IMG/VR virus record: IMGVR_UViG_3300041964_000082
Location: 1 to 64,000 of that record
Reading direction: 5' to 3' (one strand)
Origin: a virus
DNA length: 64,000 nucleotides
Shown here one piece after another: positions 35,323-54,236 of the stretch (positions within the stretch are counted from its first letter, which is position 1; the number at the start of each line of letters is the position of its first letter). Position numbers and translations under genes: made by a program. The notes beneath the pieces were generated by a model. That model saw nothing but the letters and a program-made list of their open reading frames with translations, was not told the origin of the DNA and did no database searches.

Positions 35323-36297
35323 CTATGCCACCTCCTGGGAGTGGAGTTGCAAAACTCGCTGGAGTGCGATCGCTGCTACTTGTGGGACTACTGAGTTGCC
35401 GAGTCCTTTAATGCGGTGTGTCCGATCGGGTATCCCATGAGCCACTCGCAAAACGCTGGATTCAGTTGCCCAAGGGTTTGATCGCCCGCTTCGTGGCGAA
35501 GATAGTCGATGATGTGTTTCTGTTTGTTGGAGTTCCAGCGCTCCTTTGACGCACAACCCCTGATCCCATCGTTGGCGTCCAGTGTCGGCATTAGCCCCAT
35601 TGCTTTCGCCTTCTTCGTGTTGCTGCTGCCGCCAAAAGGATTTCTCTGGCTGGTTAGCGTTGGCATTAGCTTCACAAATCTGGCTAGCGACACACTGCCA
35701 TCTACTCCGTTGTTGCTGATCTTGCGAGGCTTTCCACTCTTGAGCCAATAAATTTGTGTATTCTCGTTCAGAATTGCCCCCATTGTTCCGTCTGATGCGG
35801 TGACAGTTGGTAGCAACGATGAAGACTCTTTCGCGTAAATGAGGCGCACCCACTGACGCCGCTGAAATAGTCTGCCATTCCGCATCGTACCCGCCTTGGG
35901 AAAGCTCCCAGAGAACGGTTCCCATAATGCGACCTCGCTGTTTCCGAAGCATCTCTGCGACGTTTTCCAGTACGAGGTAACGGGGTCTGCACTCGCGAAC
36001 GATTCGCATGAGTTCAAAGAAGAGTCCAGACCGTTCACCTTCCAGTCCTCGCCCGTTGGGGTTGGCGCATGAAATGTCCTGACAGGGAAAACCTCCGGTG
36101 ATGAGATCGAAATCTCCAGGCTTAGCTGAGTAGGTTCTGATGTCGTCATGGATGGGGATTCCAGGGAAATTCTTAGCTAGAACCTTTTGGCAGTAGGGAT
36201 CGATTTCCACGAATTGCCGTGTCTCAATTCCTCCGACCATTTGAGCGGCAAGGGAAAAACCGCCAATACCTGAGAACAGATCAAGATGTTGCAGCAT
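35323..36297 (-). CDS. C5-cytosine DNA methyltransferase
   Basis: 324 intact residues with ordered motifs: DLFSGIGGFSLAAQMVGG (I, AdoMet binding), FVEIDPYCQKVLAKNFP (II), DLITGGFPCQDIS (IV, catalytic Cys), LVLENVAEML (VI), VGAPHLRERVFIVA (VIII) and RIKGLGNSVVPQVA (X). It methylates cytosine in DNA, probably to protect phage DNA or mimic host HIP1-site methylation; specificity cannot be read. A second gene lies inside it in another frame (35388-36149). Confidence 0.85.
   Translation of the reverse strand: MLQHLDLFSGIGGFSLAAQMVGGIETRQFVEIDPYCQKVLAKNFPGIPIHDDIRTYSAKPGDFDLITGGFPCQDISCANPNGRGLEGERSGLFFELMRIVRECRPRYLVLENVAEMLRKQRGRIMGTVLWELSQGGYDAEWQTISAASVGAPHLRERVFIVATNCHRIRRNNGGNSEREYTNLLAQEWKASQDQQQRSRWQCVASQICEANANANQPEKSFWRQQQHEEGESNGANADTGRQRWDQGLCVKGALELQQTETHHRLSSPRSGRSNPWATESSVLRVAHGIPDRTHRIKGLGNSVVPQVAAIALQRVLQLHSQEVA
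35388..36149 (-). CDS. Overlapping gene inside the methyltransferase
   Basis: A 253-codon ORF fully inside the methyltransferase gene in another frame. It resembles a phage protein family: SFPKAGTMRNGRLFQR, SSSLLPTVTASDG, LMPTLDANDGIRG and LGQLNPAFCEWLMGYPIGHT. That last motif is the shifted reading of the methyltransferase motif X region (RVAHGIPDRTHRIKGLGNS). I recall proteins with a 'LPTPTAxD ... LNPxxVEWLMGxPxGWT' layout beside or overlapping such methyltransferases. Function unknown. Confidence 0.55.
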   Translation of the reverse strand: MTTSEPTQLSLEISISSPEVFPVRTFHAPTPTGEDWKVNGLDSSLNSCESFASADPVTSYWKTSQRCFGNSEVALWEPFSGSFPKAGTMRNGRLFQRRQWVRLIYAKESSSLLPTVTASDGTMGAILNENTQIYWLKSGKPRKISNNGVDGSVSLARFVKLMPTLTSQRNPFGGSSNTKKAKAMGLMPTLDANDGIRGCASKERWNSNKQKHIIDYLRHEAGDQTLGQLNPAFCEWLMGYPIGHTALKDSATQ

Positions 36298-36466
36298 CGA
36301 TCGCCTCCTTCACCTGCTGAGTTGCTTCGCCCTCTGTTTTGCACTCCTCGCTTTCAAAGCGATCGGTATGGGCAACGTAGAGCGGGTAGGGGGCGAACCC
36401 CCCATCTGCATCTATGTTCTGTGTGGTGTGAATTTCGATCGTGTAGCCCTTGTAGGTGAGTGACAT
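36281..36466 (-). CDS. Small protein, 61 aa
   Basis: MSLTYKGYTIEIHTTQNIDA then PYPLYVAHTDRFESEECKTE, a small beta-rich fold followed by a helix. It overlaps the methyltransferase start by about 17 bases. Function unknown. Confidence 0.5.
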   Translation of the reverse strand: MSLTYKGYTIEIHTTQNIDADGGFAPYPLYVAHTDRFESEECKTEGEATQQVKEAIDAATS

Positions 36467-36848: not shown

Positions 36849-37085
36849 ATGAAGATGAGATGCAAACTACCTGAACTGATGAAGGCGCGAAACCTTGACC
36901 AGAAGACTCTTGCCGCTGAGACGGGCTTGAGTCCTACAACCGTAGGGAAGTTGTACCGCAGCCATTTCGATCGCATTGACAACCACACAGTTACAACGCT
37001 GTGCAAATATTTCGGATTGCGGACGCTTGATAGCTTGATCGAGTTGGTTTGGGAAAGTGGTGACACAGAAGGACGGCAAGCATGA
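36849..37085 (+). CDS. XRE/Cro-type repressor
   Basis: 78 residues with a helix-turn-helix of the Cro/CI group: KLPELMKARNLDQKTLAAET, GLSPTTVGKLYRSHFDRID, VTTLCKYFGLRTLDSLIEL. It is read away from the leftward operon, so it likely represses its own and that promoter. The stop overlaps the next start (ATGA). Confidence 0.7.
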   Translation: MKMRCKLPELMKARNLDQKTLAAETGLSPTTVGKLYRSHFDRIDNHTVTTLCKYFGLRTLDSLIELVWESGDTEGRQA

Positions 37086-37663
37086 CTCTCACAACCATCG
37101 ACCCATTGACCTTGCCGTCTATCCCGCTGTCCGATCGTCGAAATCTGCCTGAATCGGCTGGAATCTATTTCGCAATCGCTGCTGATGGCTCGATTCAATA
37201 CATCGGCAGGGCAAAGAACTTTAGAGCTAGATGGGGTTCTCATCACAGGCTTAAAAAGTTGGCAGAAATCGAAAGCGTAAAGATTGCTTGGCTTGAGGTT
37301 TCTGATTTGCTGCTGTTGCCCGAAATTGAGTCTTTGCTGATTGCTCATTTCCAACCGCCTTTTAACAAGGAATATGAGGTAAGGTTCAAACCGTCTGGCT
37401 TGACTGCTGCTTCTCTTCCGTGCGCAACTTCTTTTAGAAAATTCACTCCGACAGGGTGGCGACTTCGAGCGCTAATGGCTGAAAAGCGGATAACAAACCA
37501 GCAGCTAGCCGATCGATTGCAAGAAATTACAGGCAAGCCAAGGCATCGCCAAACTATTACTCGCTGGCGCAACGCTGATACGATGCCACTGCTCGACGGC
37601 AAAGATTTAGACGCATTGCAGCAAATCCTTGAATGCTCTCGCGACGACCTGTTAGGAGACTGA
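37082..37663 (+). CDS. GIY-YIG nuclease fused to XRE domain
   Basis: 193 intact residues. GIY-YIG part: ESAGIYFAIAADGSIQYIGR, a following Arg/His (FRARWGSHHR), the catalytic-type Glu (LPEIESLLIAHFQPPFN) and Asn. The C-terminal 70 residues form an XRE helix-turn-helix (GWRLRALMAEKRITNQQLAD, HRQTITRWRNAD). The fusion could steer the nuclease to specific operators. It is co-transcribed with the repressor upstream. Confidence 0.65.
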   Translation: MTLTTIDPLTLPSIPLSDRRNLPESAGIYFAIAADGSIQYIGRAKNFRARWGSHHRLKKLAEIESVKIAWLEVSDLLLLPEIESLLIAHFQPPFNKEYEVRFKPSGLTAASLPCATSFRKFTPTGWRLRALMAEKRITNQQLADRLQEITGKPRHRQTITRWRNADTMPLLDGKDLDALQQILECSRDDLLGD

Positions 37664-38259: not shown

Positions 38260-38733
38260 CTACTGGAGGCGATAGGGGTATCCATTGGTGCGTCCGTCAT
38301 AGATGCCGCAACCTGCATTTCTCAGGTATTCCGTCATGCTCCGAAGCGTTGCAGTGTCAACCGTTAGAGTCGATCGCCCCTGATCCACCTGCTCTCGATC
38401 GATTCCCGCAGCCTTTGCGATCGCTGTTAGCAACTCCTCAAGCGCTTCGCGGTTCTCTCGGTGGGTTAATCCCTTTGCTAGTGCCAGTTGGAAGGTTCGC
38501 AGCGGCAGCGTTAGTTCGATCGTTGTTGGTTTCAGTGCTTCGTCTGCCTCGAATTCTGCGCAGGGTATCAGCACAGAAGAAAACAGGTTTAGCCGCTCTT
38601 GGCTGTCAATTTCTAATCTTTTCGACGCTTCCCAGTAGGGAGCATTAACAGCACAGCCGCGATCGGCGTTGTATTTGCAGTTTTTACAGATTGGTGGGGT
38701 CATAGTTTCAGGTGGTGATTTGGTTTCTTGCAT
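38260..38733 (-). CDS. Zinc-binding-like protein, 157 aa
   Basis: The N-terminal part has a four-Cys pattern (PPICKNCKYNADRGCAVN ... PCAEFE), then a helical middle (LTHRENREALEELLTAIAKA) and DTATLRSMTEYLRNAGCG. The start ATG overlaps the methyltransferase stop region upstream. Function unknown. Confidence 0.5.
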   Translation of the reverse strand: MQETKSPPETMTPPICKNCKYNADRGCAVNAPYWEASKRLEIDSQERLNLFSSVLIPCAEFEADEALKPTTIELTLPLRTFQLALAKGLTHRENREALEELLTAIAKAAGIDREQVDQGRSTLTVDTATLRSMTEYLRNAGCGIYDGRTNGYPYRLQ

Positions 38734-39875
38734 TACGCTGTTGCCTCCTGTAGGTTAAAAATAGTGAGTTGCTGGCAGCCGTCCGCAACCTTGAGCAGCT
38801 TGGGTTTGCTGACTCCAGGCGCGTGTTTTTCTAGCCATTCTTCGCGCTCTTGCTCAGAAGGCAAATACTTAAAATGTCCTAGCCGCTGGCAGCATCGACT
38901 AATCCAGTGCGGATCAATTTCAATGCCGATCGCCTGCCTGCCTAAGCTTTTCGCAGCGATCAGTGTTGAGCCTGATCCGGCAAAGCAATCGAGTACGACA
39001 GCGTTCGATCGAGTGGACGCGCTAATGATGTGTTGCAGCAGTTCTAGCGGCTTTTCGCAGGGGTGCTTACCTGGATATGCGCCAACGGTCGGAAATGTCC
39101 AAACATCGGTGTATGGCACGTCAGCAGTGACAGAGAAGGGGCGGCGTAGCGATTCGTATTCTTGGCGTAGCGATTCGTATTCTTGGCGTAGCGATTCGTA
39201 GCTGCGTTCAAAGTAGCCGGGGAATGCTAGCTGGAGTTTTGCGTAGTGTTCTGGTGTTGGACAGTTCTTACCCTTCTCCCAGTTAGAGCAAGCACCCCCA
39301 TGATTTACAGTGCCGTATGCCCCTACAACCTCGGTTAACTGCTTCGATGACAGCTTATGCTCCGCTCTAATTTGTTTAATGTAGTTACCCCAAACCGCTT
39401 GCGCTGCTTCGTCGCATTTAGACCAGTAACCGCTTTCATCTTTTGCGCCTTCATCAGATCCATAGTGTTCGCAAAAAATAATAGATTCCGTGTTAGGCAG
39501 AAACGATCGAACCTGCTCTTTGTCTGCACACCAATTTCTATTCCCGTTGGACTTGTACCAGCGGATGCTATTCAGCACATTAAATCGATCGCCCAACATC
39601 ACCTCAACTCTTGCTGCCATTCTCGGAGAGGCAAAACAGTAGAGCGAGCCATTCGGCCTTAGCAGTCTTTGCCACTGCTCAGCGACTTTATCTAGCCAAG
39701 ACAGGAAAGCTGCGGGCTTCTCCCACTGACAATCCCACCATTCATCTTTTTTCACCTGAAAAAAAGGTGGATCTGTGAGGATTAGATCGACACTGCTATC
39801 AGGCAGCGATCGCATTACTGCCAAGCAATCGCCCTGGTACAAGCTGATTTGTGGTGTTTCAAAGCACGGTTTCAT
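38733..39875 (-). CDS. DNA methyltransferase with inserted XRE domain
   Basis: 380 residues. SLPDSSVDLILTDPPFF carries the DPPF catalytic motif and VVLDCFAGSGSTLIAAKSLG the AdoMet-binding motif; DPPF-first order fits the beta class (N6-adenine or N4-cytosine). Between them, residues about 165-225 form an XRE-type helix-turn-helix (IRAEHKLSSKQLTEVVGAYG, SNWEKGKNCPTPEHYAK) followed by a heptad repeat (LRQEYES). This would serve as a target-recognition insert. It may protect phage DNA from host restriction. Confidence 0.8.
   Translation of the reverse strand: MKPCFETPQISLYQGDCLAVMRSLPDSSVDLILTDPPFFQVKKDEWWDCQWEKPAAFLSWLDKVAEQWQRLLRPNGSLYCFASPRMAARVEVMLGDRFNVLNSIRWYKSNGNRNWCADKEQVRSFLPNTESIIFCEHYGSDEGAKDESGYWSKCDEAAQAVWGNYIKQIRAEHKLSSKQLTEVVGAYGTVNHGGACSNWEKGKNCPTPEHYAKLQLAFPGYFERSYESLRQEYESLRQEYESLRRPFSVTADVPYTDVWTFPTVGAYPGKHPCEKPLELLQHIISASTRSNAVVLDCFAGSGSTLIAAKSLGRQAIGIEIDPHWISRCCQRLGHFKYLPSEQEREEWLEKHAPGVSKPKLLKVADGCQQLTIFNLQEATA
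39144..39199 (-). repeat. 21-bp tandem repeat in methyltransferase
   Basis: GCGTAGCGATTCGTATTCTTG occurs twice in full and a third time in part, with perfect copies. It encodes YESLRQE heptads. Perfect repeats of this kind are prone to unit gain or loss and would change the length of a coiled-coil linker. Confidence 0.8.
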
Positions 39876-52849: not shown

Positions 52850-52990
52850 TTACGACGGCTTTTTAGGGAGTCGCAACCTACGGATCAACTCTCTCAGTAC
52901 GTCAGACTTCGTTCTGCAGACTGCCTCGCAATAAGCCTCTAGCAATGCAAACTCTTCATCATTCAACCGGAAAAACACACTTTTACTCAT
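52850..52990 (-). CDS. RHH protein divergent from TnpB, 46 aa
   Basis: MSKSVFFRLNDEEFALLEAY, then TKSDVLRELIRRLRLPKK, a compact ribbon-helix-helix DNA-binding protein. It is read away from tnpB with a perfect palindrome between them, so it is probably the repressor of the element. Its stop lies in the left-end hairpin. Confidence 0.6.
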   Translation of the reverse strand: MSKSVFFRLNDEEFALLEAYCEAVCRTKSDVLRELIRRLRLPKKPS

Positions 52991-52996
52991 GGCAAG

Positions 52997-53015
52997 GTAT
53001 ATCGTTATGATATAC
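52997..53015. promoter_or_regulatory. Palindromic operator between RHH gene and tnpB
   Basis: GTATATC-GTTAT-GATATAC is a perfect 7+7 inverted repeat placed 7 bases from the RHH start and 10 bases from the preferred tnpB start. A repressor bound here would block translation-start regions of both transcripts. Confidence 0.6.
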
Positions 53016-53024
53016 AATAGTAGC

Positions 53025-54236
53025 ATGAAACTTCGCTACCGCTATCGTCTTTATCCCAATTCCGAGCAGGTTAAACTGCTCTCTAAGCTGTTTGGCTGCA
53101 CTCGTGTAGTTTGGAACGACGCTTTAGCTTTTTGCCAGCAGACGTGGAAGGAGGGAATCAAATACCCTGGTGCTAGCGAGTTGATGAAGCAGTTCATCAC
53201 ACAAGCGAAAGCCAATCCTTTGCGCTGCTGGTTAAGCGAGGTTTCTAACATCCCATTGCAACAGTCGATTCGAGATCTAGACGCTGCCTTTCGCAACTTC
53301 TGGAACTCGATCAAAGGCAGCCGCAAGGGGCAGAAAGTAAAGCCACCCAGGTTTAAGAAACGGCATTCTAGACAGACTGCCAGATTCACCACGGGTGGAT
53401 TCAGCATCAAGGCTGAGAAGGTCTACTTTGCCAAGATTGGCAAGGTCAGAACGGTATGGAGTAGACCTTTGCCATCTACTCCATCCTCCGCAACTGTAAT
53501 CAAGGATGCAGCCGGACGCTACTTTGTCAGCTTTGTCTGCGAAGTCGAGGTTGCTACACTGTCAACTTGCCCTAACGCGGTCGGCATAGACTTGGGCATC
53601 CAGACCTTTGCCGCCCTGAGCACGGGTGAGAAGATTGATGCCCCCAAGCCGCTCAAAGCTGCACTCAAAAAGCTCAAACGATTACAACAGAGCCTCAGCC
53701 GCAAGGTGAAAGGATCAAAACGTAGAGAGCAAGCAAAGTTAGCCGTAGCGAAGCTTCACGCCTTCATTGCTGATGCCCGCACCGATTTCCTGCACAAACT
53801 CTCAACTCGACTGATTCGCGAGAACCAAGCAATCAGTTTAGAAGACCTAAATGTGTCAGGGATGGTCAAGAACCGCAAACTCGCAAGAGCGATTAGCGAT
53901 CTAGGGTGGAGAACCTTTCGAGAGATGTTGGTCGCCAAAGGTGGGATGTATGGCCGTGAAGTCAGCATCATCAACCGTTGGGAGCCGACATCGCAAGCCT
54001 GCTCAAACTGTGGGCATCGTGGCGGCAAACTCAATTTGTCTGTCCGATTGTGGGAGTGCCTGTATTGCGGTGTAAGTCATGACCGAGACATCAACGCTGC
54101 CATAAACATCAAAGTCGCGGGAGGACATTCCGAGACTCAAAACGGACGTGGAGAGACTGTCAGACTGCCATTGGCAGCAGGTTTCAGTGAAGCGTCAACC
54201 CATCAATTAGGAGAGCAGCTATGCCTGGACTTCTAG
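53025..54236 (+). CDS. tnpB: TnpB RNA-guided nuclease
   Basis: 403 residues from MKLRYRYRLYPNSEQVKLLS; an upstream in-frame ATG at 52989 lies in the operator and is not preferred. The RuvC residues are present: Asp in VGIDLGIQTFAAL, Glu in ISLEDLNVSGM, Asp in HDRDINAAINI. The zinc finger is CSNCGH ... CLYCG. Frame and length are intact, so the nuclease may be active. TnpB cuts DNA next to a short target motif using a guide RNA from the element's right end. Confidence 0.85.
   Translation: MKLRYRYRLYPNSEQVKLLSKLFGCTRVVWNDALAFCQQTWKEGIKYPGASELMKQFITQAKANPLRCWLSEVSNIPLQQSIRDLDAAFRNFWNSIKGSRKGQKVKPPRFKKRHSRQTARFTTGGFSIKAEKVYFAKIGKVRTVWSRPLPSTPSSATVIKDAAGRYFVSFVCEVEVATLSTCPNAVGIDLGIQTFAALSTGEKIDAPKPLKAALKKLKRLQQSLSRKVKGSKRREQAKLAVAKLHAFIADARTDFLHKLSTRLIRENQAISLEDLNVSGMVKNRKLARAISDLGWRTFREMLVAKGGMYGREVSIINRWEPTSQACSNCGHRGGKLNLSVRLWECLYCGVSHDRDINAAINIKVAGGHSETQNGRGETVRLPLAAGFSEASTHQLGEQLCLDF

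Follow-up and report, generated by a model that had tools for sequence, protein, structure and literature searches.

The stretch of DNA analyzed here, referred to as the window, comprises 64,000 nucleotides (positions 1 to 64,000 of IMG/VR virus record IMGVR_UViG_3300041964_000082); the source is a 94,714-base virus record whose genes include those for a tape-measure protein, a DNA polymerase, a helicase, a second methyltransferase, and a transposase. On the minus strand of the window lies a gene for a C5-cytosine methyltransferase, which we call alpha, and a second ORF, beta, is fully nested within it in the +1 frame. The features of the locus are listed below in window coordinates.

36304..36310, minus strand: Shine-Dalgarno-like AAGGAGG 5' of the alpha ATG (sequence context)
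35323..36297, minus strand: alpha ORF, 324 amino acids, ATG start; C5-cytosine methyltransferase with motifs I to VIII and X, motif IX not recognizable
36256..36282, minus strand: alpha motif I, DLFSGIGGF (sequence)
36079..36096, minus strand: alpha motif IV, GGFPCQ, including the catalytic Cys (sequence; PF00145 match)
35959..35967, minus strand: alpha motif VI, ENV (sequence)
35812..35835, minus strand: alpha motif VIII, RERVFIVA; immediately 3' of it lies the switch of constrained frame (substitution analysis)
35383..35406, minus strand: alpha motif X, GLGNSVVP (sequence, profile match)
35388..36149, minus strand: beta ORF, 253 amino acids plus stop, ATG start; +1 frame relative to alpha, fully nested in it
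35817..36149, minus strand: beta residues 1 to 111, over the alpha catalytic core; dual constraint over roughly the final 80 codons ahead of motif VIII (substitution analysis)
35466..35816, minus strand: putative beta recognition zone, three repeat-like modules starting LLPTVTASD, LMPTLTSQ, and LMPTLDAND (substitution and motif analyses)
35415..35465, minus strand: beta motif IX, LNPAFCEWLMGYPIGHT; dual constraint (position, spacing, substitutions)

Read in the alpha frame, bases 35466 to 35816 are an unconstrained linker, and alpha motif X overlaps the final beta codons and the beta stop. Elsewhere in the window, a second DNA methyltransferase is encoded at 38733 to 39875 on the minus strand (phrog_67, E 1.9e-76; its 333 residues cover 230 profile positions, and it may hold an insertion), a transposase at 52989 to 54236 on the plus strand (phrog_506, E 1.1e-122), and a short ORF that combines a GIY-YIG domain with a Cro/C1-type helix-turn-helix at 37082 to 37663 on the plus strand.

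Family matches of alpha and beta

Alpha matched Pfam family PF00145 (E 1.6e-46; 159.7 bits against a curated cut-off of 22) and PHROG profile phrog_363 (E 2e-77), and its PDB match to M.HhaI spanned alpha residues 2 to 162 only, residue 162 being the end of motif VIII. Beta residues 43 to 247 aligned with positions 65 to 281 of the 329 in phrog_1008, a profile named "DNA methyltransferase" (E 1.3e-22), and the motif X end of alpha gave a weak match to positions 287 to 324 of the same profile (E 0.0036). For beta, no Pfam family scored above its cut-off, no HNH family was among the Pfam matches up to E 1, no NCBIfam model matched, and a beta profile (A4) compared with PDB sequences gave 0 matches up to E 10. 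The ORF list, the +1 offset, and the PF00145 match of alpha bear out the original prediction of a 253-codon ORF inside a C5-methyltransferase gene; the peptides quoted there from the beta frame are present in the translation, and the phage protein family suspected behind the second frame is found in phrog_1008. The same prediction took alpha motif X to be the shifted reading of EWLMGYP in beta, which is incorrect: EWLMGYP (inside 35415 to 35465) overlaps the alpha RVAHGIPDRTHR stretch just before motif X.

By position and spacing, the end of beta is motif IX. The beta modules lie upstream from it and start with [LW]xPT[PVL]; within the zone between motifs VIII and IX, the pattern [LWFMIVYC]PT[PVLIA] occurred 283 times in the beta frame, once in the alpha frame, and 5 times in the +2 frame. 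A "TL" motif, PT[ILV][TASV], is described in PMC2413257 as conserved in recognition domains, 10 to 50 residues before motif IX, and the likeness of the module readings in window beta (PTVT, PTLT, and PTLD) to this recognition motif is suggestive. A rough pattern counted 0 to 7 modules per putative recognition zone across loci. The variable number of PT[P/V/L] modules in the beta zone (window positions 35466 to 35816 and relatives) might mean that there are several recognition units per enzyme.

Conservation of the overlap

The openness of the +1 frame alone is only moderately unusual. When alpha was shuffled synonymously 10,000 times, a +1 run of at least 262 codons survived in 71 of the shuffles, so openness in a single sequence proves little. 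The converse test on the window locus, in which the beta protein was held constant, gave a stronger result: the zone from motif VIII to motif IX was open in the alpha frame in 0.2% of shuffles. A +1 beta match was present in 111 of 111 loci (80 fetched with alpha alone, 30 with beta, and the window), a count made with a beta HMM trained iteratively on those same hits, the N-terminal part of which may echo alpha conservation. When the set was enlarged by 80 loci from genomes, 80 from viruses, and 7 annotated records, the match was found in 273 of the 275 loci having an alpha core; the two exceptions, L115 and L117, encode enzymes of the ordinary single-frame kind. A second frame broken in most homologs, which the original prediction had named as speaking against it, was looked for and is absent from this set.

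Of 278 loci examined with motif patterns, which are independent of the HMM, 208 had motif IX in the +1 frame and motif X in frame 0, and 9 had the two motifs together in frame 0; one locus was odd, and 60 were unassigned, among them three without an alpha core (L171, L187, and L193). For the 80 loci fetched by alpha alone, 49 had the strict IX(+1)/X(0) arrangement, 4 had IX(0)/X(0), and the other 27 were pattern unassigned. The spacing from motif IX to motif X was 62 nt in 185 of the 208 IX(+1)/X(0) loci; for the 10 loci with motif IX in frame 0, it was 84 nt in 9. For some loci the same contig is present twice (L002/L032, L047/L245, L051/L240, and L053/L273).

Both members of the pair are already annotated in some phages, namely, Shelly ("g55 internal gene"), K1ind2, and Zaka; a search of 571 phage records with Zaka beta served only for choosing examples. 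The overlap, which the original prediction placed among the longest in a phage, is no record in length: such pairs are known from annotation, and relatives reach 1239 bases (L048).

Selection along the two frames

Substitutions between close pairs were scored as silent or nonsilent in each frame, with NN/SN as the measure for alpha and NN/NS for beta; values of about 1 denote an unconstrained frame. The first set comprised 35 disjoint pairs (73 to 99% identical DNA) from 103 distinct alpha sequences, and those in which the motif VIII pattern found no match went into a pool of their own, separate from the three zones given here. Alpha gave 0.23 up to motif VIII, 1.12 (0.89 to 1.37) between VIII and IX, and 0.62 in the tail; the corresponding beta values were 0.82 (0.67 to 1.00) in the core, 0.39 (0.28 to 0.56), and 0.43. 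Analysis in bins of 10 codons was possible for 26 of the 35 pairs; in these, the alpha codon position that evolves fastest changed from third to first directly after motif VIII, and alpha-silent changes were suppressed from about 70 to 80 codons before it. A replicate set of 54 further disjoint pairs, drawn from 136 new loci and divided into five zones, gave alpha values, in order, of 0.34, 0.40, 1.15 (1.03 to 1.27), 0.59, and 0.31 and beta values of 1.08, 0.70 (0.62 to 0.77), 0.65 (0.55 to 0.78), 0.26, and 0.89, with the +2 control frame at 1.44 to 1.72 in all zones. The window and its two nearest kin (L002 and L033) agree with this pattern (alpha 1.05 and beta 0.68 between VIII and IX).

The constrained frame thus switches at motif VIII in two independent pair sets. 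From the zone ratios it follows that the start of beta is little constrained, that constraint is dual over about 80 codons ahead of motif VIII, that the zone between VIII and IX is constrained in beta only, that motif IX is again under dual constraint, and that motif X is constrained in alpha only. The expectation that codon substitutions would reveal selection on both frames therefore holds for those 80 codons and at motif IX and fails between VIII and IX and at motif X; dual constraint over about 760 bases, as originally predicted, shrinks to parts of the overlap. That both frames are truly coding is upheld by the retention of beta in homologs and by this pattern of constraint.

Between motifs VIII and IX, an open alpha frame was present in 186 of 186 loci, compared with 23.3 expected from synonymous shuffles with the beta protein fixed, and the +2 frame was open in 8 of the 186, compared with 10.4 expected, which is the chance level; near duplicates and zones shorter than 60 nt were left out, leaving 186 of 208 loci for this test. 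In this zone the alpha residues are free, yet the frame must run on to motif X. The pair is a natural experiment in which an unconstrained stretch is held open to serve a motif farther downstream.

Fusions, layout variants, and structure models

In mycobacteriophages Aggie and Seagreen, the core, modules, motif IX, and motif X all lie in a single frame, and viral loci related to these two include both fused and split forms. The C-terminal halves of the fusions aligned with the beta profile (97.4%, E 9e-12), the motif IX of beta falling on theirs, and motif X was in frame in every fusion inspected. One natural in-frame fusion (L312) models as an HhaI-like enzyme: the prediction was confident for the core and for motifs IX and X, with the modules below pLDDT 50, and it aligned with M.HhaI end to end (1svu_B, Z 21.3, 220 residues aligned, rmsd 3.4). 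The model of beta alone was poor (mean pLDDT 59, pTM 0.39) and had no Foldseek match at E <= 0.001; VIA-align returned only WW domains for it (Z 2.0 to 2.4), which were set aside given the low confidence of the model. An alignment in which fusions were combined with alpha cores and beta tails was also set aside for modeling, as its beta rows fell under the alpha core.

Other layouts occur as well. In Mycobacterium phage Zaka, a member of the same family, alpha stops after motif VIII, and motifs IX and X are on beta; in L105, L107, L109, and others, motifs IX and X are in the alpha frame, and the modules are in +1. Profile A3 matched 23 of 292 cyanobacterial genomes, many solely over the part that overlaps the alpha core. 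In five cyanobacterial loci (L325, L338, L340, L343, and L347), alpha (280 to 290 codons) lies inside a longer +1 ORF of 415 to 946 codons that exceeds it at both ends. Four of the five share a segment downstream of alpha (E 2e-76 to 1e-110 among L325, L338, and L340; E 2e-6 to 2e-7 for L343 against these three), and for this reason we favor true translation of the +1 frame there. The long +1 ORFs of the four that were scanned (L325, L340, L343, and L347) had no Pfam match up to E 0.01. A further candidate, a methyltransferase inside ASCH-domain or J-domain genes of cyanobacterial plasmids, was dropped, as those overlaps measure just 4 to 11 bases.

Putative initiation of beta

In the window, alpha has a strong Shine-Dalgarno sequence, and beta has at best a weak one, its ATG being preceded by CCTGGAATCCCCATCC. 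A +1 ATG near the alpha PCQ motif was present in 163 of 221 distinct loci, and the remaining 58 had none in that zone. Among the 58 loci whose start falls outside the alpha WPEVP zone, 24 had a Shine-Dalgarno match of at least 5 bases, compared with 23 of 496 control +1 ATGs, an enrichment that makes internal initiation likely in many relatives. The signal may be partly a by-product, because +2-frame ATGs of the same zone have a strong Shine-Dalgarno sequence in 18 of 98 cases. In the window itself, beta would presumably be initiated internally as well.

Discussion

The overlapping pair most likely encodes both subunits of a single C5-cytosine methyltransferase of the M.EcoHK31I type, with the recognition region in beta. 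Alpha would give the AdoMet-binding and catalytic parts (motifs I to VIII) and, past a long free stretch, motif X; beta, starting within alpha in the +1 frame, would give motif IX and the DNA recognition region, which has one or several PT[P/V/L] modules. Together, the polypeptides would assemble into an HhaI-like enzyme that would methylate phage DNA, probably as a guard against host restriction. Selection, motif content, and the fusions make the beta zone between motifs VIII and IX most likely the recognition region; an HhaI-like recognition-domain fold did not emerge there from the low-confidence models of beta and of the L312 modules. The original prediction spoke of two separate proteins, and here the fusions and the beta profile point instead to parts of one enzyme.

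A different way of making the same parts would be a programmed +1 frameshift near motif VIII, giving one chain with motifs I to VIII, the recognition region, and motif IX, and leaving unshifted ribosomes to make alpha with motif X. The change of constrained frame within about 10 codons of motif VIII would fit such a shift, as would the 58 of 221 relatives that lack a +1 ATG in the start zone, and the in-frame fusions show that a chain of this kind is viable. A shifted chain would, however, stop short of motif X, which all inspected fusions keep in frame; a late shift would not call for the constraint on beta that begins some 80 codons ahead of motif VIII, and many beta ATGs are preceded by a strong Shine-Dalgarno sequence. 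We consider a frameshift unlikely, though it is the most credible of the rivals.

Two further explanations carry still less weight. That beta is a separate protein with a role of its own, for example as a regulator or antirestriction factor, and merely overlaps the methyltransferase seems improbable to us: beta by itself has no recognized fold, and its frame is part of a longer ORF in five cyanobacterial genomes, but motif IX sits in beta at a fixed spacing to motif X while alpha lacks motif IX, and the fusions put alpha and beta parts in one chain. The least probable explanation, and one already contradicted, holds that the +1 ORF is a by-product of the composition and conservation of alpha and that no protein is made from it. 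The 71 of 10,000 shuffles that match the window run and the possible echo of alpha in the N-terminal beta similarity are what it could account for; it does not account for beta-silent changes being favored where alpha is unconstrained (the +2 control shows none of this), for the restriction of the PT[PVL] motif to the beta frame, or for the existence of in-frame fusions.

The reading as two subunits of one enzyme has precedents. M.EcoHK31I and M.EaeI are both C5 methyltransferases made of two polypeptides, and the small gene of M.EcoHK31I is reportedly nested in an alternate frame of the large gene (Lee, Kam and Shaw in 1995); the window pair, with beta nested in alpha in another frame, would resemble it in this respect. 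M.EcoHK31I is called naturally split in PMC3439449, and its large subunit is described in PMC3404938 as having motifs I to VIII and X with the predicted recognition domain and its small subunit as having only motif IX. Compared by motif layout, the window pair is alike, with motifs I to VIII and X but no recognizable motif IX in alpha and with motif IX in beta; it would differ from that printed account over the recognition domain, for which selection, motifs, and fusions favor the small subunit and not the large one. The placement given there belongs to one account and does not define the two-subunit type. For M.AquI, PMC3404938 gives motifs I to VIII on one polypeptide and the recognition region at least partly on the other, which also has motif X. 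The window pair shares with M.AquI the separation of catalytic motifs I to VIII from the predicted recognition region but has motif X in alpha and motif IX in beta, unlike the placement of both on the second subunit of M.AquI; Zaka, of the same family as the window pair, has the AquI-like layout. With single-chain enzymes of the M.HhaI type, the pair has in common the motifs and the core fold, and the family fusion models as HhaI-like, whereas the putative recognition region and motif IX of the window sit in another reading frame. A second ORF in a different frame within a phage methylase gene is also seen in the ShiLan type, which PMC11855218 describes as an out-of-frame mobile HNH insertion in the third frame; window beta, by contrast, is in +1, has no HNH match, and is read as part of the enzyme. 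In the literature searched, mostly open access, we found no description of a family-wide overlap, a frame switch, or a recognition zone in beta; the location of the recognition region and the range of frame layouts reported here go beyond the published accounts that we found.

Annotation usually distrusts or drops long overlaps on the same strand; this one is conserved over phages and bacteria, its signature at the codon level is clean, and each frame has a likely function. The records of Escherichia coli A16 and Synechococcus phage S-H1 show alpha only, and that of Gordonia phage Geodirt shows beta only; in the phiBT1 record, alpha is noted as "may be inactive," and the +1 beta ORF is unannotated. 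A locus of E. coli EC20 (L318) is annotated as two incomplete pseudogene pieces, and its alpha ORF and +1 beta ORF both match the family. The recognition specificity of such enzymes is to be sought in the other frame.

A broader reading, to which we give about an even chance, is that the family represents an old and widespread frame-modular enzyme design of phages and bacteria, in which the recognition part lies in +1 over a free but open stretch of the catalytic subunit and small indels shift whole parts between frames. The outcomes of such indels would be motif X in alpha or beta, motif IX in alpha or beta, in-frame fusion, and alpha nested in a longer beta-frame ORF. With the recognition part in a separate frame, modules could therefore be changed while the catalytic subunit is left untouched. 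If this reading is true, the recognition domain of M.EcoHK31I has been placed in the wrong subunit, and for this methyltransferase family half of an enzyme is what many annotations show.
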